This document shows, one piece after another, positions 1,648 through 31,878 of a DNA stretch of 32,149 nt; the first letter of the stretch is position 1; each line of letters begins with the position of its first letter. This DNA is from Bacteriovoracaceae bacterium (GTDB taxonomy: Bacteria > Bdellovibrionota > Bacteriovoracia > Bacteriovoracales > Bacteriovoracaceae). The notes below the pieces were generated by a model. The model was given only the letters and a program-made list of their open reading frames with translations, had not been told where the DNA came from and ran no database searches. The position numbers and the translations under genes are program-made. Where the stretch lies: assembly GCA_017858255.1 (NCBI GenBank), contig JAFMBV010000036.1, forward strand, positions 1-32,149. Reading direction: 5' to 3'.

Positions 1648-2626
1648 ATGAACTCAGATGAAAAAATGACACTGCTTTTAGCAGTGGAAGAAAGTGGTTT
1701 TAAAATCACAGAGGCACTCAAGCGTCTTGATATACCAAGATCGACTTACTATCGTTGGCGCTCGAAACTTCGGCGTGAAGGGCTTACGGGACTTAAAGAC
1801 AAAAGACCAGCACCTAAGAGGCAATGGAATGCCATCACGCCGAAGGAAGAGGAGACGATATTAGAAATTGCTGAAAGTGAAGCAGAAAAGTCCTGTCGTG
1901 AAATAAGTTTTACGATTACAGATAATTCAGTTTTCAGCGTGAGTGAGTCGACAGTGTACAGAGTTTTAAAAAGTAACGGCCTAGTAAGAGAGACAAAAGT
2001 AGATAGCTTTCCAGCAGCAAAAGAGTATCACTCAAAACCACAGTACGTGAATGAGCAATGGCAAACAGATGCGACCTATCTTCACGTTGAAGGCTGGGGC
2101 TGGTTTTATTTAATTTCAATTCTTGATGATTTTTCTGGAAAGATTATTAGTTGGAAAGTTCAAGACTCGATGACAGCGGACGACTTTATTGAAGTGCTGG
2201 ATGATGCTTGTGACAAGGCAGGACTTGATAAGAAGAGCATGCCTAAACCTTGTGTCTGATCGTGGACCGGCATTGATCTCAGAAGACTTGAGAGACTATC
2301 TGAACGGACAAGATATACATCATATTTTAGCGAGTCCCTATCATCCACAAACGAATGGTAAGATTGAGAGGTATCACAAGTCGTTAAAGTCGAAAGTTAA
2401 GCTTCATATTTACAGCTGTCCTAACGAACTTAGAAAAGAGGTTGATAATTTTATTAATTTTTATAATCAAAACCGCTATCACGAATCGCTTGGCAACGTG
2501 ACTCCTGACGATGTGTTTTATGGAAGAAGAGAAGAAATAATTATAGAGAGGGAGGAGAAAAGACGACGAACAATTATGAGAAGAAAAAACTACAATAGAG
2601 GTTCAAATACAGTCATGCTGTGTTAG
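1648..2626 (+). pseudogene. IS3-family transposase OrfB, frameshifted
   Basis: This is the catalytic part of the transposase (rve integrase fold). It has an N-terminal HTH (about residues 15-45, ending RSTYYRW), then the DDE core. The first Asp is in QTDATY (codon 2068-2070), the second in SDRGP (codon 2258-2260), and the Glu in KIERYH (codon 2366-2368). Asp2 to Glu is 36 codons, the classical D-35-E spacing. The frame opened at 1648 stops at 2257-2259, while the rest continues in the next frame. An extra base, or a loss of two, near 2245-2252 separates the first Asp from the other two. All motifs survive, so the mutation looks recent. A sequencing error is the main alternative. Confidence 0.8.
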
Positions 2627-3642
2627 GACATAGAAAGGCATGGTTGTCCCAAATGTGCTGAAGACTTACAGCGATTAAAGGCCGCAGCTGCCTTCTTGTA
2701 CCCTTTGATTTCATAAAGAGTGTGGAGAGCTTCCTTGGCAGTATAAATATCTTTAAGATCTGGATAAAAGTGAAGAATCGCTCTTAGAGTATTCTTCTCA
2801 TGATTTCTCAGGCGACTTCCTCTCTTTTGAAGCATCATCTTAAAAGGGTTTTTTCTTTGCTTACCAATGACTTCTCTTTTGTACTTTTGAAGAGGTCCAG
2901 AGAGAAGACGTAACACGTGAAACTTATCTGCTGTAATAGTCGCATTTGGAAAAAACTCTTTAACAAAACTTCTAAACCCAGGGGAGAGGTCGGTGATAAC
3001 ATTTTTAACTCCTTCTCGCCCTTTAATTTTTGATAAATTTTCACAAGACATTAAATCTGCAGGTGACCTGCCATATGCGGCTTCTCGAACCTTTTTATTA
3101 TTATAATCCACAAAGATTGTGGTGAAGTCTTTTCTGCCAAATTTATTACGAATGAAACTATGCTCATCAATGCCTACAGTTTTAGGCCATGGGCTTTGAT
3201 GCTTTCTGTTTTCAAGTTCAATTTGCTCATAATAACATTTGTAAACAAGCCACTGTGAGCACCTGTGCTTGCGAGCTACTTTCTTTAAAGTATCAAAGGT
3301 TGAAGAGTCATGCATGAGATTACGTCGATATCTTTGAGTGGTCCTAAACCCTTTTCTAATTCCATTAACTGGTTCTCTAAAAATAGAGCTACATTTTTTA
3401 CACTTAAAACGCCTCTTTTTAATTTTTAAAATCACGTTCTTCCCTCGAAGTGGAACATCACGAATAGTAGAGTAAACATGATCGTAGATAACTGAACATT
3501 TAGCAGCACACTTGGGACAAACTTCAAATTTAGAGCATTTGAGTACTTCAAAAACTCGATCTTTATGACGAGTTGATGAGACTTGTTTGATAAATTTAAG
3601 TTCCGGTAAGAAGAGTGCTTTGGTAACATTGTGGGTAGACAT
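2623..3642 (-). pseudogene. ISL3-family transposase, C-terminally truncated
   Basis: The N-terminal zinc-binding segment (CPKC about residue 42, KCKKC about residue 80) and the DDE-type core of ISL3 transposases are clear. The first acidic residue is in TVGIDEHSF and the second in VITDLSPGF. Family similarity runs to AAAAFNR (about residue 323) and then breaks at position 2671, the right end of the IS3 element. The last 15 or so residues are read from IS3 end sequence. The missing part normally holds the conserved TEGFN region with the third catalytic acid, so the product should be inactive. The rest of the gene is not on the other side of the IS3 element, so simple insertion does not explain it. 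A sequence resembling an ISL3 end (GCTCTTTGTTAGAATTT on the minus strand) lies at about 3677-3693. Confidence 0.8.
2644..2670 (-). repeat. Right terminal inverted repeat of the IS3 element
   Basis: Its reverse complement matches 1167-1193 at 21 of 27 positions. It supplies the last aberrant residues of the truncated ISL3 frame. Confidence 0.7.
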
Positions 3643-16924: not shown

Positions 16925-17665
16925 CTATTTCAGCTCTGGGAATTTAAACTCTTTAACTAGTGGTGAGATGTTCTTCCTCCATGGGCCTCTTGGAGCAAAG
17001 CTTAAATGCATGGCGATCGGATTTGCGAAGTTTGCGCATATAAGTTGTGGGCTTGATTTTAAAAAAGGCCTTACTCCTAAAGATTCAGGTAGAATAAAAA
17101 ACTTCGCCCTTCCTTTCTTTAACATTTTCATTGCTCGTAAAATATAGTTCCCCGTGTAATCTAGACGTTGGATTTTTAATTTTAAATCTTTTACTTTTGA
17201 GTGAAGATAAGCTCCCTGAGGATAAATTACTTCTTGTCCTGTCAATATAGCATCATCGATCTTTTGAGTGATAGACCGCAGCGAGCAAATGATGGGTTGC
17301 ATTTTTACAAGAGGGTTTTTAGCATATTCAACATCTGCTTTATCCTCAGGTCCTGGAGCATAGCTGCCATAAACTTGAATGAGATTGTTCTTAAGAGAAC
17401 GTCCGCCCCTCGCTAAAGGAATCCTTAACCATTTAATTTGATAGTTATACTGAAGAAAATCAGTTAGATGCTTGACTAAAAAACCCTTGGGCGTCTCTTC
17501 ACTAAAGTCATAATAAGGGGGGTAATGGACAGCACCAATTGTAAGTACAGGTTTTTCGGCTGCCTCAACTTTAGAGATCATCAAAGATGATAAAATTATT
17601 AAAGAAAAAGACAGAAAAGCATTTAATTTTAGATATTTCTTAATCATTGGTTGAAAGGCTAGCAC
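16925..17665 (-). CDS. Solitary periplasmic substrate-binding protein (copy 1)
   Basis: This 246-residue exported protein resembles the extracellular solute-binding family 3 fold. A signal peptide (ending near VEAAEK, about 36) is followed by LTIGAVHYPPYYDFSEETPK, the typical first strand and ligand loop, and a GFLVKHLTDFL helix. No permease or ATPase gene is nearby, as is common for lone binding proteins of this type, which may act as sensors or scavengers. The frame opens at GTG 17665. ATG 17647 is an alternative that still leaves a good signal peptide. A near-identical paralogue is at 23224-24060, which lost the last ten or so residues of this version (KEFKFPELK end). Confidence 0.75.
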   Translation of the reverse strand: MLAFQPMIKKYLKLNAFLSFSLIILSSLMISKVEAAEKPVLTIGAVHYPPYYDFSEETPKGFLVKHLTDFLQYNYQIKWLRIPLARGGRSLKNNLIQVYGSYAPGPEDKADVEYAKNPLVKMQPIICSLRSITQKIDDAILTGQEVIYPQGAYLHSKVKDLKLKIQRLDYTGNYILRAMKMLKKGRAKFFILPESLGVRPFLKSSPQLICANFANPIAMHLSFAPRGPWRKNISPLVKEFKFPELK

Positions 17666-17748
17666 ATAAAAAAATCTAAATCATATTAGTTTTGATTTAG
17701 TTTAAATGAGTAGCCTTTGATCTAAGAGACAACTCCTACATTTGATAA

Positions 17749-21203: not shown

Positions 21204-22229
21204 ATGAAAAGAAAAATAGTTCTGTCATTAATGGTCACTCTCTATGTCTCGACTCCTGAGGCCAGGGTTACGCAAGAGCAGTGCTCCTCCTTAGATATTC
21301 GTGATCAAATGGAGCCAGAGATGCGTGCGCACTTTAGTACTCCACGAAACCAAGGTAGTGTTGGTTGGTGTTATGGTTTTGTTGCAGCTGATTTACTCTC
21401 TGTAGATTTGGGTGTTCCTATTTCTAGTACCTTCGTTTCTGCAACCTATAATCAAGGGGTACGGCGAAACCCAATAACCCGCGCCATTATGTCGGTGATA
21501 CGCCCTCAAGAAGGGCAGACAGGATCAAATGTTGGTGAAGGTGGATTCATTCGTCAGGCAATTTTACAAAATATGCGGCAAGATTTTATTTGCCAAGAGG
21601 ATGGATTACCTTTTGATAGTAATAATGAAAGTGGCACTTTAAGCCATATTCGTTTTTTAGAAGACTTAGAAATTTTTTTGGAAGACCGCAGGGGTGGAGA
21701 AGTTAATCTAAATGATTGTGCGGCCTTTGCTTATCAAAGAGAAATAAATCCTTTCATCGGTGAAAATTTACAGCTTCTTGCTAATCAACTCACAAATCAT
21801 CATATTGATGAGTACCTTGCAAATTTAGTACACAATGCTTGCCCTGCTTCTCAGAGAGTGCCGGTGGTTGAAAAAAGAGTCTTAAAAAGAAGGGCGCCTT
21901 CTCAAGGCAATGCTCGCGCCGTTGATAATTGGTTTAATGACTTAGGTAATGTTTTAGAGAGGGGAGGAGCCGTTGGTTTTGAATACGATTCTGGTCCTAT
22001 ACTTCTTAAAAATGGTGGTATTGCTCCTCATGCTAGTGTGATCACAGGCAGACGCTGGAGTGAAGGAAAATGCCAATTTAAAGTGAGAAACTCCTGGGGA
22101 GAAGATTGTTCGGTTTATGATCCAAGTGTTATTGAAAGTTGTAATGAAGGCGAAGGCTCTTTTTGGTTAAGTGATGATGAGTTATTAGAGATTTCAACAA
22201 ATATTAGTTTTATTCATCACGAGGAATAG
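21204..22229 (+). CDS. Secreted papain-like cysteine protease (C1A)
   Basis: This 341-residue protein has a short signal peptide (about 1-20). The papain catalytic set is intact: Gln50 and Cys56 in RNQGSVGWCYGF, His276 in IAPHASVITG, and Asn296 in VRNSWGE with the following Trp. The order and spacing match C1A peptidases. There is no obvious inhibitory propeptide, since the catalytic Cys lies only about 36 residues after the signal, so it may be held inactive by another protein. About 200 residues between Cys and His exceed plain papain and contain several extra Cys. The next gene, a lipoprotein hydrolase, starts 3 bp after its stop. Confidence 0.85.
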   Translation: MKRKIVLSLMVTLYVSTPEARVTQEQCSSLDIRDQMEPEMRAHFSTPRNQGSVGWCYGFVAADLLSVDLGVPISSTFVSATYNQGVRRNPITRAIMSVIRPQEGQTGSNVGEGGFIRQAILQNMRQDFICQEDGLPFDSNNESGTLSHIRFLEDLEIFLEDRRGGEVNLNDCAAFAYQREINPFIGENLQLLANQLTNHHIDEYLANLVHNACPASQRVPVVEKRVLKRRAPSQGNARAVDNWFNDLGNVLERGGAVGFEYDSGPILLKNGGIAPHASVITGRRWSEGKCQFKVRNSWGEDCSVYDPSVIESCNEGEGSFWLSDDELLEISTNISFIHHEE

Positions 22230-22973: not shown

Positions 22974-23045
22974 AAATTTAGGAAGAAGTTTTTAGGAGCG
23001 GTGGTTTATTCTGTTGTTCTTTAAAAGTTAGTAAGATTTTTCATT

Positions 23046-23353
23046 TTAGTCTTCAAACTTCCCAAAGTAACAAAGAATGTCTTCTCCTTTGAAACTGACA
23101 TCTTCTGTACCAGCAAATGGTGTTAAGTCTATATCTGCCGTACCGAATCCATTTTTTGATTGAATACTTACGAGCTCTTTTCCATTGTAAACACCCACGG
23201 CCTTGATTGAGTTGTCTGATCTCTCATAACGTGTGATTTTTAAATCGATGGTTTGTGGATTTTGTTCCAAGCGAAAGTAGTTGATTCTTAAGGTTCCTTG
23301 CTTTTTTAGTACACCAAAGAGAACGACAGTATCGACCTGTGTGTAACACATGA
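23046..23353 (-). pseudogene. Truncated duplicate of the 124-aa exported-protein gene
   Basis: This stretch is about 95 percent identical in DNA to 25512-25820, the main part of an intact gene 2.5 kb away, from codon 23 to the stop. It lacks the signal-peptide codons and joins directly to the second substrate-binding-protein gene at about 23353/23354. An open frame continues upstream into that gene (ATG at 23393) in a different frame, but with no ribosome-binding site and no export signal. It is best seen as a gene fragment. Confidence 0.8.
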
Positions 23354-24060
23354 AGTGGTGAGATGGTCTTCCTCCATGGGCTTCTTGGAGCAAAGCTTAA
23401 ATGCATGGCGATCGGATTTGCGAAGTTTGCGCACATAAGTTGTGGATTTGACTTTAAAAAAGGCCTAACTCCGAAAGATTCAGGTAGAATAAAAAACTTC
23501 GCCCTTTCTTTCTTTATCATCTTAATTGCTCGTAAAATATAGTTTCCCGTGTAATCGAGGCGCTGAATTTTCAATTTTAAGTCTTCTACTTTTGAGTGAA
23601 CATAAGCTCCCTGAGGATAAATGACCTCTTGTCCTTTCAATGCAGTATCATCAAAATTTTGAGTGATAGACCTTAGCGAGCAAATTATGGGTTGCATTTT
23701 TACAAGAGGGTTTTTAGCATATTCGACATCAGCTTTGTCCTCTGGCCCTGGAGCATAGCTGCCATAAACTTGAATGAGTTTGTTCTTAAGAGAACGTCCA
23801 CCTCTAGCTAAAGGAATCCTCAGCCATTTTATTTCATAATTATGCTGAAGAGATTTAATCAGATGCTCGACTAAAAAACCCTTGGGCTCCTCCTCACTAA
23901 AATCATAATAAGGTGGATAATGGACAGCGCCAATTGTTAGCACTATTTTTTCGGCTGCTTCAATTTTATAGTTCACCAATGAAGATAAAAAAATTAAAGA
24001 AAAATACAAAAGAACCTTTAGTTTTATAGAATACATATTCATTGGTAAAAAGGCTAACAT
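23224..24060 (-). CDS. Solitary substrate-binding protein (copy 2) with foreign C-terminal tail
   Basis: This is a paralogue of the protein at 16925-17665, very similar from the signal peptide (ending near IEAAEK) through APRSPWRKTISPL (residue 236). At that point (about 23353) the homology ends and the frame runs into a duplicated fragment of another gene, out of that gene's frame. This adds about 42 unrelated residues (HVLHTGRYCRSLW and on, Lys/Asn-rich). Only about ten native C-terminal residues are lost, so the binding fold may still form. It starts at ATG 24060. Whether the tailed product is stable is unknown. Confidence 0.75.
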   Translation of the reverse strand: MLAFLPMNMYSIKLKVLLYFSLIFLSSLVNYKIEAAEKIVLTIGAVHYPPYYDFSEEEPKGFLVEHLIKSLQHNYEIKWLRIPLARGGRSLKNKLIQVYGSYAPGPEDKADVEYAKNPLVKMQPIICSLRSITQNFDDTALKGQEVIYPQGAYVHSKVEDLKLKIQRLDYTGNYILRAIKMIKKERAKFFILPESFGVRPFLKSNPQLMCANFANPIAMHLSFAPRSPWRKTISPLHVLHTGRYCRSLWCTKKARNLKNQLLSLGTKSTNHRFKNHTL

Positions 24061-24282
24061 AGAAAAAAATTAAATCATGTAAGTTTTGAATAAATCTAAA
24101 ATATAGGTATTTATTGCTAATTCAATTCTTTAAAGTTCTTTTTTTTAATCTGAATATTTTAAATATAAATATCACTAATTTCTAAAGTAAATCTCATTTT
24201 CCAAGTCTCTATATGGTGAAATAACTTTGCACTAAACAAGCTACGGGCACTTATCAACACTGATAGGTTAAGGTTTCAAAGA

Positions 24283-25464
24283 ATGCAAAAAATAATCAAA
24301 GCCAAGTCTATTATGCTTAAATATGCATCCTCTACGGGTATATCAGGTATATCACATAGGCCAAGACGTTATCTTTGGACGGACGCTTTTGCAGTGTGCA
24401 ACTACTTAGGCCTGTATCGTCATGATGGGGAAGAATACTTTTTACAACTTGCTTTAAAACTTGTTGATAAGGTTCACCAAACACTCGGTAAGCACCGTCT
24501 TGATAGTGGGAAGAGGGGCTGGCTCAGTGGTCTTAGCGATGAGCAGGGTTTGGAACATCCCACTTTGGGAGGTTTAAGGATTGGCAAAAAAATGAATGAG
24601 CGTCAGCCCGGTGAAAAGACAAATGAGTCTCTGGAATGGGATCAGGATGGCCAATATTTTCATTACCTAACAAAGTGGATGCATGCACTTAATCTCGTCG
24701 GTCATGTTACAGGCAAGAGCATTTACCATGTATGGGCACTGGAGCTCGCCAAAGTCGCCTATTCTGGGTTCTCCTATTCACCTTCTTCTCTGTCGGATAC
24801 AGAGCAAGAAAAACGCCTCTTTTGGAAAATGAGCATTGACCTGACCCGACCTCTCGTTGATTCAATGGGCCATCATGACCCGTTGGATGGACTTATCACT
24901 TATCTACAACTGGAGGCGACTCTAGCAGAATTTCCTGAGATTACCGCTGATTTGAGTTTAAAAAAAGAAATTAAAGAATTGGAAGGTATGTGCATTGGTA
25001 AAAAATGGATGACGAAAGATGCTCTAGGCATGGGCAGTTTAGTAAGTGATACGTTCAAAATTGTCCAATTAATTGATAAGAATCATATTCAGGAAGGCAC
25101 TAGGTTAGAGTTCTTACTAAGAGACATTGAGCTCAGCTTCCAGGCCTTCATGACTTACAATCAACTACATCTTCCCGCTCAATATCGCCTCGCATTTCGC
25201 GAGTTAGGACTGGCCATTGGGTTACATGCTATAGAGAAGATTCAAAAGACCATCGAAGGCCATCCCGATAAATTCAATAATGCGGCTCATTTAATTTCCA
25301 CTGTGAATAAACTTTCTTCTTTTCATAAAATTTCCGGACTAATTGAAAAGTTTTGGTTAGCGCCCGAACATCAATTAGTGAGTAGTTGGTTGGAACACGC
25401 AGATATAAACAACGTCATGCTTGCCACAAGTCTGGTACCAGACGGCTATTTAACAATAGATTGA
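24283..25464 (+). CDS. Conserved all-helical protein, possibly (alpha/alpha)6 barrel
   Basis: This 393-residue cytoplasmic protein has repeated helical hairpins and conserved blocks RRYLWTDAFAVCNYLGLYR (28-46), GLRIGKKMNER (97-107), LEWDQDGQYFHYLTKWMHAL (117-136) and a GHHDPLDGL. I recall similar conserved hypothetical proteins in diverse bacteria. The pattern of aromatic and acidic residues at helix ends suggests a six-hairpin glycosidase or epimerase-like barrel, but no catalytic assignment can be made. AAGG lies 9 nt before the ATG. It sits in the same direction as the ATP-grasp/deacylase pair but is separated from it by an opposite-strand gene. Confidence 0.7.
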   Translation: MQKIIKAKSIMLKYASSTGISGISHRPRRYLWTDAFAVCNYLGLYRHDGEEYFLQLALKLVDKVHQTLGKHRLDSGKRGWLSGLSDEQGLEHPTLGGLRIGKKMNERQPGEKTNESLEWDQDGQYFHYLTKWMHALNLVGHVTGKSIYHVWALELAKVAYSGFSYSPSSLSDTEQEKRLFWKMSIDLTRPLVDSMGHHDPLDGLITYLQLEATLAEFPEITADLSLKKEIKELEGMCIGKKWMTKDALGMGSLVSDTFKIVQLIDKNHIQEGTRLEFLLRDIELSFQAFMTYNQLHLPAQYRLAFRELGLAIGLHAIEKIQKTIEGHPDKFNNAAHLISTVNKLSSFHKISGLIEKFWLAPEHQLVSSWLEHADINNVMLATSLVPDGYLTID

Positions 25465-25511
25465 TACTTTCAATGACCTAACGGTGAATATGCCCTATTT
25501 AAGCAATTATC

Positions 25512-25886
25512 TTAATCCTCGAACCTTCCAAAGTAACAAAGAACGTCTTCTCCTTTGAAACTGACATCCTCTGTACCAGCAAAAGGTGTTAAGTCTATGT
25601 CTGCCGTACCGAATCCATTTTTTGATTGGATACTTATGAGTTCTTTTCCATTATAAACGCCCACGGCCTTGATTGAGTTGTCTGATCTCTCATAACGTGT
25701 GATTTTTAAATCGATGGTTTGTGGATTTTGTTCCAAGCGAAAGTAGTTGATTCTTAAGGTTCCTTGCTTTTTTAGTACACCAAAGAGAACGACAGTATCG
25801 ACCTGTGTGTAACACATGAAAGCGTCGCTAATTTTTGCGTGGGTTGAAAGAGAAAAGGCCAGACTTAAAAGTAGTAAGTATTTCAT
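25512..25886 (-). CDS. Small exported protein, 124 aa (intact copy)
   Basis: A clean signal peptide (MKYLLLLSLAFSLSTHA, 1-17) precedes a strand-rich domain of about 107 residues, with two Cys (FMCYTQ at 25 and VLCYFG near the end) that may pair. I do not recognise the family. It is complete, whereas a truncated copy of about 308 bp is fused to a binding-protein gene at 23046-23353. GACCC/AAGG around the start gives a weak ribosome-binding site. It is alone between two plus-strand genes. Confidence 0.75.
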   Translation of the reverse strand: MKYLLLLSLAFSLSTHAKISDAFMCYTQVDTVVLFGVLKKQGTLRINYFRLEQNPQTIDLKITRYERSDNSIKAVGVYNGKELISIQSKNGFGTADIDLTPFAGTEDVSFKGEDVLCYFGRFED

Positions 25887-26211
25887 AAGGGTCCTTGTTA
25901 ATTTTCTCTCATTTTACTACTTCCAAGGAATTTCGTGAATTAGGAATATGATTCCTTGTTAGGTAACATTGTATCTTCATAACTTGGTTGTTGTAGGAGA
26001 TGATTTAGATATATAGGAATCCCATAAACGTTAATCACCTTTATAATATTTATATTTATATTAAAGGCACTAATAAATAGGATAAGGCGTAATAAGTCTG
26101 TTATTGTTTTGGGAGAAATAACGGCATTTTAGACTTTGATGTGGGCAATTGCTTGAAATGACGCTGAGGCACCAGGTCTTGGCGAGTTTGGGTAGATATT
26201 GGGAGTTAGCA
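25887..26211. other. Spacer upstream of the ATP-grasp gene
   Basis: This 325-bp AT-rich stretch must hold the promoter of the small minus-strand gene and that of the ATP-grasp operon. It contains a 7-bp inverted repeat (AAGGAAT 25925-25931 / ATTCCTT 25951-25957) and a CCTTTA/TAAAGG pair (26038-26043/26062-26067) around a pure A/T core. No small gene is supported. Confidence 0.4.
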
Positions 26212-27636
26212 ATGAATAACGACATAAAAATTATAAATCCGGGTGACTTTGAACCCGAAAATCATTTTTATCCTAAGGCCCTTAATGCTCAGCTTCATGC
26301 GATGGTTGGGCATTTTTTTAATCTAGATCATCAAAGGATTTTAAAAAGATATGGTCACTTAAATCCACAGGTTGACCTTAAGTATCTCGAAGAAATTCTA
26401 ACTTACCCCTGTCGCCATTTCTTTTGGGGTGGCGCCGACCTCTTTTATGTCACGACTGAAAGTGGTAACCGAAAAATGGTCGTTCTTGAGACAAACTCTT
26501 GTCCCTCAGGTCAAAAGTCTATGCCTCCACGTACAGACTCTGATGAACATCGAGGTTACCGATTTTTAATAGAAAACTCATTTATCCCTCTGTTGAAAAA
26601 GAAAAGGCTCCCAAAAGGTGCCCTCGCAGTCATTTATGATAAAAACTATATGGAGACTTCAGGTTATGCTTCAACCTTAGCTGACCTAACGGGAGAGCCT
26701 GTTTATTTGGTTCCTTTTTATGATCAGGAAGATTCAAATGTTTATTTTAATGAAGGGGTCCTAACCCTAAAAACTGAAGATGGAGAAGTTCCCATTCGAG
26801 CGGCCTTTAGATATGTAACTCAAAAGCCCTGGAACCGTATTCCTCCAACGACTAAAACATTTATCTATAATTCGACTTTAGTTTGCTTGGCCGGTGGTAG
26901 GAACAAATTATTGGCGAATAAGGCCTACGAACTTTTTAACTCTGAGCTTGCAGGAAGTGGTCTGCGAATTAGTATGCCAGAGACTATTAAGGATGTAAGT
27001 AAACTCGAGATTCCTTTGTGGGTCCAAAGGTTTGGGGGAAAAGCTGTTGTAAAAAACCCTTACTCAAACGCTGGACAGGGGGTTTATACAATCACCAATG
27101 AAAGAGAACTCGATAGTTTCATGAAAGAGGACTATGCTTATGATCAATTTATCGTTCAATCCTTAATTGGCCATTATGAGTGGAGTTCTAGCTCACAGCA
27201 TGGACGGTTTTTTCATATCGGCACAATACCTAACAAAAAAGGAAATATTTATATTTCTGATTTAAGGGTCATGGTTTACTCGACACCTAAAGGTTTTTTT
27301 CCATGTGCAATTTACGCAAGGAAGGCCAAAGCCCCATTAACTGCGGAACCACCAGAAAATAGCTGGGAAGTTCTTGGTACCAATTTATCAATTAAGAAGG
27401 GCGAGAATCAGTGGGATTCAGACACCAATCGTTTAATGCTAATGGATCGAAAAGACTTTAATAGTTTGGGCCTTGGAACTGATGATTTGATTGAAGCTTA
27501 TATTCAAACAGTTCTTTCAGTTGTAGCCATTGATAAAATGGCCCAAAACTTAATTAGTAAGAAAGGTGCTTTCAGAAGTAAGCTCTTTCGCTCTCTTGAT
27601 AATGATGAGACCCTTGTTAACGAAATAATGTTATAG
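26212..27636 (+). CDS. ATP-grasp-type ligase, 474 aa
   Basis: ATP-grasp enzymes activate a carboxylate with ATP and join it to an amine or thiol. The ATP-binding loop is seen as KAVVKNPYSNAGQGV (from K277), and the acidic metal-binding strand as SDLRVMVYS (Asp350, Arg352). The N-terminal half (LETNSCPSGQKSMPP, LAVIYDKNYMETSGYASTL) would form the substrate and pre-ATP-grasp domain. ATG 26212 is chosen because GGGAG (26201-26205) precedes it by 6 nt; longer TTG/ATG starts at 26149 and 26158 lack one. The next gene, a zinc deacylase, starts 8 bp after the stop. The pair suggests making and breaking of an amide or peptide-like bond, with the substrate unknown. Confidence 0.7.
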   Translation: MNNDIKIINPGDFEPENHFYPKALNAQLHAMVGHFFNLDHQRILKRYGHLNPQVDLKYLEEILTYPCRHFFWGGADLFYVTTESGNRKMVVLETNSCPSGQKSMPPRTDSDEHRGYRFLIENSFIPLLKKKRLPKGALAVIYDKNYMETSGYASTLADLTGEPVYLVPFYDQEDSNVYFNEGVLTLKTEDGEVPIRAAFRYVTQKPWNRIPPTTKTFIYNSTLVCLAGGRNKLLANKAYELFNSELAGSGLRISMPETIKDVSKLEIPLWVQRFGGKAVVKNPYSNAGQGVYTITNERELDSFMKEDYAYDQFIVQSLIGHYEWSSSSQHGRFFHIGTIPNKKGNIYISDLRVMVYSTPKGFFPCAIYARKAKAPLTAEPPENSWEVLGTNLSIKKGENQWDSDTNRLMLMDRKDFNSLGLGTDDLIEAYIQTVLSVVAIDKMAQNLISKKGAFRSKLFRSLDNDETLVNEIML

Positions 27637-27644
27637 GTAGAAAA

Positions 27645-28649
27645 ATGACTATTCTTAAAATAAAAGCAAAAGAAGACCTTAAACTCTCTGATCTTAAAAA
27701 AGGGGAAGTTCATCGGGTCCAAGTATTGGTTTCAGATAATGCAATGGGTGTTCCTTGGAGGGTTCCACTCATTATCATTCGTGGTTTAGAGAAGGGACCG
27801 GTACTAGGCATAACTGCGGCTTTACACGGTAATGAACTCAATGGAATTTCTACGATTTTTAAAATGATTGATGCAGTTAAACCGGATAAATTAAAAGGAA
27901 CTCTCGTGATGGTTCCTATTTGTAATGTACCTGGATATTTAGAAAATAAACGTCACTTTTCTGATAATGTTGATCTTAATAGAATTATGCCAGGTAAACC
28001 TCATGGAAAAACCTCGGATATATACGCTCATCATTTTATTCAAAAGATAATTTCTAAGTTCGACTATTTACTTGATTTACATACGGCAAGTCATGGCAGA
28101 GTTAATAGTCTTTATATTAGGGCCGATCTCGAAAATGAAGAAACAAGGAACTTAGCTTATCTTCAAAACCCACAAATTATTGTTCAAAAGTACGATGAAG
28201 ATGGGACTTTAAGGGCATGGGCGAATGACAATAATATTCCGGCAATAACGATTGAAATTGGAAATTCGAATGCCTTTCAACACAGTCTTATTGATGAAAC
28301 CCTTGAAGGTATTTTAAATACAATGAAACATCTCAAAATGATGAGAGGGAAATCTGTCAACCTCATGGATGATGCCATTATTTGTGATAACTCTTATTGG
28401 ATTTATTCACAAAGGGGAGGCATCATTGATGTCTTTCCTACACTAGCGGATAAAGTCGAAGAAGGACAAATTATCGCCATCGTTTATGATGTTTTTGGTC
28501 AAGTCAAAGAGGAAGTTAAGGCCAATCGTTCTGGATTTGTTATTGGGAAAAATGTTAGCCCCAATTGTGAAGCGGGAACGCGAGTTCTTCACCTGGGTGT
28601 GAGCGAAATTTCACCAAGCCATGGTGATATCCCAGGCAATGTCTCTTAG
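27645..28649 (+). CDS. Succinylglutamate desuccinylase/aspartoacylase-family deacylase
   Basis: This 334-residue zinc enzyme of the AstE/AspA branch of the M14 fold hydrolyses N-acyl or amide bonds. Zinc ligands are intact: His61 and Glu64 in ALHGNELNG, and His146 in LLDLHTASHG. DLNRIMPG (from Asp110) supplies the substrate-binding Asn-Arg, and Glu204 in ITIEIGN is the catalytic base. A C-terminal beta domain (about 240-334) is the usual small biotinyl-like module (GGIIDVFPTLADKVEEGQ, then VFGQVKEEVKANRSGFVIG). It follows the ATP-grasp gene by 8 bp and is surely co-transcribed, so both probably act on the same compound. Confidence 0.85.
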   Translation: MTILKIKAKEDLKLSDLKKGEVHRVQVLVSDNAMGVPWRVPLIIIRGLEKGPVLGITAALHGNELNGISTIFKMIDAVKPDKLKGTLVMVPICNVPGYLENKRHFSDNVDLNRIMPGKPHGKTSDIYAHHFIQKIISKFDYLLDLHTASHGRVNSLYIRADLENEETRNLAYLQNPQIIVQKYDEDGTLRAWANDNNIPAITIEIGNSNAFQHSLIDETLEGILNTMKHLKMMRGKSVNLMDDAIICDNSYWIYSQRGGIIDVFPTLADKVEEGQIIAIVYDVFGQVKEEVKANRSGFVIGKNVSPNCEAGTRVLHLGVSEISPSHGDIPGNVS

Positions 28650-30075: not shown

Positions 30076-31326
30076 ATGTGGTATGCGATTGATTTTGGTA
30101 CATCGAACTCATTACTCTCATTTGTGAAAGAGGGAGAGAAACCTAGGTTACTTGATCTAGAAGAGGGCGAGCCTATTCTACGGTCGTTAATTTTTACACC
30201 TGAAAAAGACTCCTATTTCTTTGGTGCGGAAGCGATTGAGCGCTATCAAGAAATGGGCGGTGAGGGGCGCTTCTTTCGTTCTCTAAAAAAGTTCTTACCC
30301 GAACCAGGCTTTAAAGGGACGGAGGTTTTTGGTCGACGCATGAAGATCGAAGAACTTATTGCTACCTTTTTGCGAGAAATGAAGAGACGGGCCGATCAAC
30401 AAAGCGGATATGATGTGACTAACGTGGTAATGGGAAGGCCTGCCTTATATTCTCTAGACCCTAAAAAAGACCAACTAGCACAAGAGAGAATGCGGCGAGC
30501 TGCTGAATTGGCCGGCTTTAAACGAATAGAGTTTTGCCCTGAGCCCATTGCTGCCGGCCTAAACACTGATCCTGAACTTGGAGAGAGGCTTGTCTTAGTT
30601 TGTGACTTTGGTGGGGGAACCTCGGACTTTACTCTTTTGAAGACAGGTACTGCTAAATTCAGTAAGGAAAATGTGCGGGGACTATCCGGTGTTTTTGTTG
30701 CCGGAGATGCTATTGATGGCCGCATTATGCGGAAGTTTATTTCTTCTCATTTTGGAAAAGATGTCAAATATCGTACTCCTATGGGAGACAACCTCTTAAG
30801 CTTTCCTCGGAAGTTTCTCAGTAAACTTTGTAACCCTGCTCACATAGTCTTTCTAAAAGAGCGTGACACTTGGGAATTTCTTAAAGAGCTTAAGCAATGG
30901 GTGGTTGAAGGCGACGACCAGCGTTTCTTTAATCAACTTTTTTGTTTGGTAGAAGAGGACCTAGGCTATCCTGTGTATGCTAGTATTGAAAAGAGCAAGA
31001 TCGAATTGGGCGTTAAAGATGAGTGCCTATTTGAATTTCATCATCCAGGAATTGACATTCAAATGGAGATTGAACGGGCAGTCTTTGAAAAATCGGTCCA
31101 TGGTGAGCTTGAAGATATTTTCGGTGCTTTAGATAAAGTCTTTGAGCAATCTGGTCTAGCTCCTAAGGACGTGGATCAAGTGCGTATCACTGGAGGCACT
31201 GGTCAGATGCCACTAGTGCAAAAGCATCTTGCAGACATTTTTGGCAAAGAGAAAATAGAAATGAGTGAGGTCTTCCAGTCCGTAGTACAGGGCCTGGCCA
31301 AGTATGCTGAAGGTTTAAGCAGCTAG
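30076..31326 (+). CDS. YegD-like Hsp70-family protein
   Basis: This 416-residue actin-fold ATPase is of the short Hsp70 type (YegD-like), without a C-terminal substrate-binding lid. The phosphate-1 loop is AIDFGTSNS (4-12) and the phosphate-2 loop VCDFGGGTSDF (175-185). EPIAAGL (156-162) and the adenosine motif ITGGTGQMP (about 375) are also present. It is probably a cytoplasmic chaperone or regulator. AGGAG precedes the ATG by about 6 nt. The Nudix gene starts 28 bp after its stop, so the two may share a transcript. The preceding lipoprotein gene is 45 bp upstream. Confidence 0.85.
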   Translation: MWYAIDFGTSNSLLSFVKEGEKPRLLDLEEGEPILRSLIFTPEKDSYFFGAEAIERYQEMGGEGRFFRSLKKFLPEPGFKGTEVFGRRMKIEELIATFLREMKRRADQQSGYDVTNVVMGRPALYSLDPKKDQLAQERMRRAAELAGFKRIEFCPEPIAAGLNTDPELGERLVLVCDFGGGTSDFTLLKTGTAKFSKENVRGLSGVFVAGDAIDGRIMRKFISSHFGKDVKYRTPMGDNLLSFPRKFLSKLCNPAHIVFLKERDTWEFLKELKQWVVEGDDQRFFNQLFCLVEEDLGYPVYASIEKSKIELGVKDECLFEFHHPGIDIQMEIERAVFEKSVHGELEDIFGALDKVFEQSGLAPKDVDQVRITGGTGQMPLVQKHLADIFGKEKIEMSEVFQSVVQGLAKYAEGLSS

Positions 31327-31353: not shown

Positions 31354-31878
31354 ATGAGGCACATTCACACGGCTATACATTCACAAATCGATACCATTGA
31401 TAATAAGTCTATCTTTCAACGAAAGGCCACGAGGGCAATTGCTCTCAGGGGGGACATGATTCTTATGGTTTTTACTGAACGATATCATGACTATTGCCTA
31501 CCAGGTGGCGGTATAGATGACGGTGAAGAGCTTATCCCCGGAATGATTCGAGAGCTTCAAGAAGAAACAGGTGCCAAAAATATTTTAGATATAAGAGAGT
31601 TCGGTATCTATGAAGAATATAGACCGTGGTATAAGCCTGACTTTGATATCCAACATATGGTTTCTTATTGCTATACATGCTCTGTCGATCAAGAACTTGG
31701 AGAGACAAGTTTGGAACATTATGAACTTGATAACGGAATGAAGCCGCAATGGATAAATATTCACGATGCCATTGCCCATAATGAAGAAACGATGGCCACT
31801 AGTGAAAAGAAGGGGATGTCGATTGAGCGGGAGACTTATCTTCTTCATTTGATTAAAAAAGAAGTCGTTAAAGTCTAG
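31354..31878 (+). CDS. Nudix hydrolase
   Basis: This 174-residue protein cleaves a nucleoside diphosphate linked to another group. The Nudix box is complete: G52-x5-E58-x7-R66-E67-L-Q-E70-E71-T-G73. The N-terminal half (residues 24-50, RKATRAIALRGDMILMVFTE) is the normal first sheet of the fold, and Nudix proteins of this kind often act on ADP-ribose or oxidised nucleotides. The substrate cannot be specified. It follows the YegD-like gene closely. Confidence 0.9.
   Translation: MRHIHTAIHSQIDTIDNKSIFQRKATRAIALRGDMILMVFTERYHDYCLPGGGIDDGEELIPGMIRELQEETGAKNILDIREFGIYEEYRPWYKPDFDIQHMVSYCYTCSVDQELGETSLEHYELDNGMKPQWINIHDAIAHNEETMATSEKKGMSIERETYLLHLIKKEVVKV

Follow-up and report, generated by a model that had tools for sequence, protein, structure and literature searches.

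The stretch of DNA analysed here, hereafter the window, comprises 32,149 nucleotides of a Bacteriovoracaceae contig (JAFMBV010000036.1) and carries two adjoining genes, one for a predicted amide ligase and one for an AstE/AspA-family zinc hydrolase, which we refer to as AstE (Table 1). The two genes run head to tail on the forward strand, with 8 bp between the stop codon of the ligase and the start codon of AstE. The first-pass annotation of the window had described them as an ATP-grasp ligase followed after 8 bp by an AstE/AspA-type enzyme, a description that is borne out by the open reading frame coordinates, the PF24827 match of AstE and the ATP-grasp fold of the ligase. As detailed below, they form a genuine, conserved two-gene system around a ligase family that has no name. 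The genome of the window contains a single copy of the ligase gene. When called mechanically, its longest open reading frame reaches back to a TTG at 26149, and the extra stretch lies inside the decayed tail of the LysR gene upstream.

Table 1. Position of the ligase–AstE pair and of its features in the window
Feature	Position	Strand	Evidence and remarks
Ligase gene, 474 aa; circularly permuted ATP-grasp amide ligase (predicted)	26212..27636	+	ATG start; no Pfam family
AstE/AspA-family zinc hydrolase gene, 334 aa	27645..28649	+	ATG start; PF24827, 3.7e-34
Decayed 3' tail of NhaR-like LysR gene	26076..26225	+	tblastn 48% over 50 aa, E 2e-8; in-frame stops; overlaps ligase start
Relocated block (LysR tail, ligase, AstE)	26072..28640	+	75% identical to ancestral order in sister genome
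Ligase residues 74–100, permuted metal-binding motif GADLFY...VLETNSCPSG (D76, E93, N95)	26431..26511	+	hhalign, motif counts, invariance
Ligase residues 230–291, nucleotide-binding K232 and K281, glycine loop NAGQGVY	26899..27084	+	hhalign to RimK; invariant in 56
Ligase residues 350–395, motifs D350-L-R352 and T390-N391-L-S393-x-K395	27259..27396	+	hhalign alternative; near-invariant in 56

The ligase and its predicted permuted ATP-grasp fold

The ligase belongs to a family for which neither Pfam nor NCBIfam has a model. Among 25 members (the window's ligase and 24 relatives) there was no Pfam match, including none to the GshA family PF08886, and a sequence search of solved structures for relatives returned chance beta-lactamase matches only. 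Matches to NCBIfam were weak, and the plausible ones were all to ATP-grasp enzymes, namely the RimK family (12 of the 25 members), MptN (7/25) and glutathione synthase, with a best E-value of 3.7e-5. The ligase stays below the RimK family cut-off (TIGR00768/PF08443), the best RimK match among the 12 members being 3.6e-4. The ATP-grasp label rests on these weak matches, on a RimK profile match with an E-value of 4e-5 and on fold comparison.

The AlphaFold model of the ligase (pLDDT 88.6, pTM 0.92) aligns along most of its length with glutathione synthetases (GSS), glutathionylspermidine synthetases (GspS), YgiC/YjfC and a putative gamma-glutamylcysteine synthetase. The last of these, an ATP-grasp enzyme from Methylobacillus (3k1t), heads the fold comparison (Z 17.6, 4.2 Å, 329 residues aligned), followed by ArgX (Z 14.2, 2.5 Å, 221 aligned). 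Human GSS (2hgs; Z 14.0, 311 aligned) spans model residues 14–422 and GspSA (2ioa; Z 13.5) residues 12–414, in both cases with the sequence order kept, and the top Foldseek match is 3n6x, a putative GspS. RimK, LysX/ArgX and the D-Ala ligases match the model only from about residue 136 on. In RimK structures, chain residues 1–242 of 290 align to residues 136–442 of the model, and the part left unaligned is the C-terminal end, which carries the metal-binding D...ExN motif. The counterpart of this motif is found at the N-terminus of the ligase, where G-A-D76-L-F...V-L-E93-T-N95-S-C-P-S-G corresponds to G-V-D-I-L...I-M-E-V-N-S-S-P-G of RimK. The N-terminal half of the ligase therefore holds the permuted metal-binding segment of the fold, and we rejected its interpretation as a novel domain. 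The first-pass annotation had called this half unfamiliar and had pointed to its Cys-Pro-Ser-Gly motif; the motif is present (C97-P98-S99-G100) and is the relocated N-S-S-P-G of RimK, which accounts for the unfamiliarity, and the ligase is indeed much longer than RimK (474 amino acids versus about 300).

In hhalign comparisons with RimK, the top alignment placed ligase residues 252–323 on RimK 111–184 (E 4e-5; the ATP-binding region), the second-best alternative placed residues 91–98 on RimK 258–265 (the metal motif; P 0.016 on its own), and the third placed residues 349–359 on RimK 186–196 (the D-x-R strand). The permuted metal motif occurs in all 25 ligases versus 112 of 400,000 shuffles, and D76, E93, N95, S96, P98, G100, K232, K281, G288, G290, D350, R352 and N391 are invariant in 56 ligases. 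If the roles of these residues are transferred from RimK and GSS, the two lysines, the glycine loop and the D/ExN metal ligands that mark the ATP-grasp superfamily would all be in place. On motif order and fold, the ligase is a circularly permuted ATP-grasp enzyme of the GSS/GspS type; it has the permuted order of that type and shares its fold over most of the chain, and it lies outside the curated sequence families. A circular permutation of this kind, in the same direction, also distinguishes human glutathione synthetase from bacterial GshB. Furthermore, the ligase sequence is held tightly across genera (mean column identity 79%), which argues that the enzyme has a specific role.

The hydrolase and its active site

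AstE matches the AstE/AspA catalytic domain PF24827 with 118 bits, at a cut-off of 25. Its model (pLDDT 92.7) is closest to DoeB/EutE, an N-acetyl-diaminobutyrate deacetylase (6twm; TM 0.82), and also resembles CphZ, a hydrolase of cyanophycin dipeptides (8ein; TM 0.75); it has the AstE/AspA fold and the zinc and catalytic residues in common with both. The zinc ligands H61, E64 and H146 and the catalytic E204, which had been described as intact from the start, are present and, together with D110/N112, invariant in 51 relatives. DoeB and CphZ, however, have other partner genes, and AstE falls far below the DoeB equivalog cut-off (TIGR02994; 84.7 versus 402.7 bits), as it does below that of the AstE of the arginine succinyltransferase pathway (TIGR03242; 19.4 versus 305.65 bits).

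Conservation and joint relocation of the pair

Far from rarely co-occurring elsewhere, ligase and AstE stay together across genomes. AstE lies immediately downstream of the ligase in 14 of 16 loci of relatives and in 38 of 47 loci of named genomes, and is one gene away in one more; genomes in which no AstE adjoins the ligase still hold AstE relatives elsewhere, the weakest case being a ligase at a contig end (L071). Of 241 phylum genomes, 31 have the ligase, and every one of these also carries this AstE subtype (<1e-100), versus 1 of the 210 without the ligase (Fisher p 3e-38, not corrected for kinship; the ligase carriers represent 21 genera). Indeed, the two proteins also diverge in a correlated manner: a mirror-tree comparison of 42 ligase/AstE pairs gave a distance r of 0.79, and none of 2000 permutations was as high. 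The nearest named relative with the ligase is a Bacteriovoracaceae metagenome-assembled genome (L031), the ligase family is spread over Bdellovibrionota, Bacteroidota, Myxococcota and others, and a search of plasmids and viral contigs found no match. Isolates that carry the ligase include Aureivirga marina LMG 26721, which has two copies, and Bacteriovorax BSW11_IV.

The search for a conserved third gene, suggested at the outset, led to an NhaR-like LysR regulator, whose gene lies directly upstream of the pair in 20 of the 47 loci; more rarely, the extra gene encodes a RimK- or GshB-like ligase. The LysR protein scores 133.8 bits with the NhaR equivalog NF008284, below the cut-off of 219, although none of the other models in a set of 52 for LysR proteins scores higher. 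The sister genome G002 (L031) has the gene order RimB-RimK-AstE2-...-cupin-LysR-ligase-AstE-129aa-MFS. The corresponding locus of the window's genome (L109, on G000:C197) reads RimB-RimK-AstE2-...-cupin-LysR-129aa-MFS; here LysR is intact (L109:10533-11450) and ligase and AstE are missing. The block in the window, which aligns unbroken to L031:6861-9429, retains roughly the last 50 codons of LysR, which are interrupted by stops and overlap the beginning of the ligase gene. Given an intact LysR locus devoid of the pair and a decayed LysR tail beside the pair in the window, ligase and AstE were therefore transplanted together as one block, and the regulator was left behind.

Altogether, adjacency, co-inheritance, block relocation and correlated divergence identify ligase and AstE as a conserved functional pair. 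One could argue from the pseudogenized regulator upstream, and from a genomic setting that varies between genomes, that the two are chance neighbours or a decayed remnant without joint function, yet this is hardly credible in view of their co-inheritance (31/31 versus 1/210), their adjacency across phyla, their invariant active sites and their relocation as a block.

The region upstream of the pair in the window contains two duplications, of segments 16959-17706 and 23354-24100 (87% over 748 bp) and of segments 23043-23354 and 25509-25820 (95% over 312 bp). The two abut precisely at position 23354 and thereby create a chimeric frame (23224-24060), which points to a junction formed by recombination a short way upstream of the pair in its new place. 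Further upstream, at 1648-3642, the list of open reading frames shows integrase-core and ISL3-like transposase frames, apparently broken insertion sequences. Within the locus on G000:C197, L109:5264-11450 comprises RimB-RimK-AstE2 and, after these, genes for a hybrid histidine kinase, for a cupin and for the intact NhaR-like LysR; it is a second ligase/AstE pair in the genome, accompanied by the protease RimB.

Other amide ligases beside the hydrolase

In L040, L042, L070, L073, L076, L105, L107, L108, L111 and L129, the pair or its AstE stands next to a gene for a ligase that resembles either RimK, the enzyme that adds amino acids to ribosomal protein S6, or GshB. In the AstE tree, RimK/GshB-linked members are interleaved with those linked to the permuted ligase (7 label changes), so that the hydrolase apparently cooperates with different amide ligases. 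Genes for a Ser/Thr kinase, a PP2C phosphatase and a GNAT/CN-hydrolase also recur near the pair, in fewer loci. The longest cluster (L042:6130-13463), all on one strand, has the order LysR-ligase-RimK-AstE-Ser/Thr kinase-PP2C phosphatase-GNAT/CN-hydrolase.

These neighbours, together with the fold of the ligase, raise two alternatives. In a glutathione-like pathway, the ligase would be a GshA-type first ligase producing gamma-glutamyl-X, a GshB/RimK-like enzyme, encoded next door or elsewhere, would add the next residue and AstE would degrade the product. The best fold match, 3k1t, is a putative enzyme of this very kind (Z 17.6 versus 14.2 for the next), yet it shares 12% identity with the window's ligase, which has no Pfam match, and its gene context is another one. 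Likewise, L040, L070, L073, L076, L111 and L129 have a GshB-like gene next to the pair or to its AstE, but most loci are without such a neighbour; and a GshB-like gene is present in 6 of 7 genomes tested, of which only 1 has a PF04262 glutamate–cysteine ligase, whereas G018 holds a conventional GshA beside the ligase in the same genome. Furthermore, the GshA family PF08886 is matched by 0 of 25 ligases, and the AstE subtype is, to our knowledge, not a known gamma-glutamyl hydrolase. Hence, we consider this pathway unlikely.

The second alternative is a reversible protein tag, in which the ligase would add amino acids to the C-terminus or a side chain of a protein and AstE would trim them. The same AstE subtype adjoins RimK in L105, L107 and L108, a RimK-type gene stands between ligase and AstE in L042, and the window's genome has its second locus with RimB, RimK and AstE2. 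However, the fold of the ligase is that of small-molecule ligases (GSS/GspS/GshA), the AstE model resembles DoeB and CphZ, which both act on small molecules, and no conserved substrate protein was found among the neighbours in the 47 loci, so that we regard a role of the pair in protein tagging as improbable. RimK with RimB in the rimABK operon (PMC11957791, PMC7343187) nonetheless offers a precedent for a ligase plus a hydrolase (PMC11957791; PMC12239564): as here, an ATP-grasp ligase is co-transcribed with a hydrolase, and in some genomes it is RimK that pairs with our AstE subtype. The differences are that RimK is unpermuted, measures about 300 amino acids and works with the retropepsin RimB, while the window's ligase is permuted, longer, below the RimK cut-offs and accompanied by AstE. 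In one paper on the rim operon, a text search for succinylglutamate desuccinylase or aspartoacylase gave no match.

Polyamine genes near the pair

The first-pass annotation had remarked that no transporter or classical pathway gene is nearby, which holds for the window but not for relatives, where the pair has polyamine genes for neighbours. The ligase occurs in 6 of 249 Flavobacteriaceae genomes, and the clusters around it contain an arginine decarboxylase-type enzyme (SpeA), an agmatinase (SpeB, above the TIGR01230 cut-off) and a deoxyhypusine-synthase-like protein (DS). The order is SpeA-SpeB-x-AstE-ligase-DS in L132 and SpeA-SpeB-ligase-DS, with overlapping genes, in L133; in L134 and L129 the ligase likewise lies within a cluster of the SpeA/SpeB/DS type. 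L049, a Flavobacteriaceae contig, carries a Bdellovibrionota-type ligase–AstE pair, which groups with that of L041 (100/100 clade), and has SpeA-SpeB-DS directly downstream. Since this pair stands beside the same gene set as the native Bacteroidota ligases, the association of pair and polyamine cluster arose at least twice, in two pair lineages. The cluster is present, at a distance of no more than a few kb, at 5 of the 10 Bacteroidota loci (L049, L129, L132, L133 and L134, out of L041, L049 and L129-L136; L056 is identical to L136). L076, too, has an agmatinase gene close to the pair, and in L030/L065 a DS gene lies close to AstE-RimK. A frame of 635–667 amino acids of the arginine-decarboxylase family (PF02784) is present in each of 16 genomes, among them that of the window, from which we infer that arginine-derived amines are probably available in every one.

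This context also bears on a third alternative, an arginine dipeptide store, in which arginine would be linked to Asp, Glu or an acyl group by the ligase and set free again by AstE, in the way CphA and CphZ serve cyanophycin. AstE resembles CphZ, but DoeB is the closer relative (TM 0.82 versus 0.75); arginine decarboxylase and agmatinase genes adjoin the pair in Bacteroidota, but no cyanophycinase or CphA-like gene was recognised near it. AstE-family beta-Asp-Arg (isoaspartyl) dipeptidases do occur in cyanophycin clusters (PMC10206079), and the system of CphA with isoaspartyl dipeptidase is like ours in combining ATP-grasp synthesis and AstE-family hydrolysis in one cluster, its amides containing arginine. 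CphA, in contrast, is a large polymerase of several domains that keeps the canonical ATP-grasp order, and no polymer genes accompany the pair in the window. We thus judge such a store to be quite improbable.

Separately, Orn/Arg/DAP decarboxylase-family genes (PF02784) of 405–417 amino acids are found no more than about 1 kb from weak matches to the AstE profile (frames of roughly 390–400 amino acids) in G000:C52, G002:C42, G006:C9 and G022:C60.

Proposed function of the pair

We propose, with a probability of about 0.5, that ligase and AstE form a two-enzyme system that makes and breaks an amide, the ligase conjugating most likely an arginine-derived amine and AstE cutting the conjugate. The ligase would spend ATP to turn a carboxylate into an acyl phosphate and would then join the amine to it, and the zinc enzyme AstE would hydrolyse the same or a closely related amide, such that the level of the conjugate could go up and down. 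The likeliest amines would be agmatine, putrescine, a spermidine-like polyamine or arginine itself, and the partner would be an amino acid or a small peptide. The NhaR-like LysR protein would probably control the pair. Taken by themselves, the parts of this proposal differ in strength: that the two genes are a make/break pair for an amide bond is probable, whereas the derivation of the amine from arginine or polyamines is tentative, with odds clearly below even.

The idea of an amide make/break pair had already been put forward in the first-pass annotation. It agrees with the finding that RimK/GshB-like ligases, too, are paired with this AstE subtype; the product, left there as a metabolite or a protein tag, appears more likely to be a small-molecule conjugate, since the ligase is structurally closest to small-molecule ligases (GSS, GspS and the GshA type) and since the Bacteroidota pairs have polyamine genes beside them. 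A precedent for combining ATP-grasp with AstE is CphA with its isoaspartyl dipeptidase (PMC10206079). The closest parallel in kind may be GspSA of E. coli, or trypanothione synthetase-amidase, in which a permuted ATP-grasp synthetase is likewise combined with a hydrolase that undoes the amide; the ligase matches this type in fold (2ioa and 3n6x), and the link to polyamines recurs in the genes near the pair in Bacteroidota. GspSA differs in that synthetase and CHAP cysteine amidase form one protein, where here there are two genes and a zinc enzyme, and in that no sequence family match of the window's ligase to it is detectable. A farther-reaching version of our proposal is doubtful: the permuted ligase family would produce a new amide metabolite derived from arginine or a polyamine, the bacterial counterpart of glutathionylspermidine or trypanothione, which the dedicated AstE would dismantle under an NhaR-like (salt/pH-type) regulator.

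Several observations weigh against the proposed system. The DS-like gene is absent from the window's genome and, within the phylum, negatively associated with the ligase (12/31 versus 161/210, p 5e-5), so that it was rejected as a constant partner and the tie to polyamines may exist in Bacteroidota only; moreover, no polyamine gene adjoins the pair in the window. Members of the AstE family act on many N-acyl substrates, and this AstE could use another one. In a close relative (G094, L101), the single genome of the 210 that has this AstE subtype and lacks the ligase, LysR and AstE are kept and the ligase is cleanly absent, with 63 bp between the genes, which is a loss of the maker and retention of the breaker. 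As to the permutation, an artificially rotated ligase sequence gave no gain in hidden Markov model score (hmmscan; 16.0 versus 15.9 bits), nor did global hhalign of rotated sequences decide the matter, and the claim therefore rests on the order of the motifs, on the fold and on the local alignments that hhalign gave as alternatives.

If the make/break proposal is true, the pair would point to an undescribed conjugate and offer a two-gene handle on it, and the genes around it in the polyamine operons of Bacteroidota give a definite set of candidate substrates. Our literature search found no paper joining RimK, ATP-grasp and succinylglutamate desuccinylase, and among the matches listed none that joins ATP-grasp with the polyamine cluster; the ATP-grasp neighbourhood survey of Iyer (2009), which lay outside this search, may mention such a pair.

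Other genes in the window

The all-helical protein encoded at 24283 had been mentioned as a possible member of the system; it was found in 2 of 144 genomes of the phylum and was rejected as a partner. At 21204-22229, the list of open reading frames includes a predicted secreted protein with the papain-like peptidase motifs GWCYGF and NSWG. Downstream of the pair, a protein of the Hsp70/MreB fold (PF00012, 7e-25) is encoded at 30076-31326, followed by a NUDIX hydrolase at 31354.

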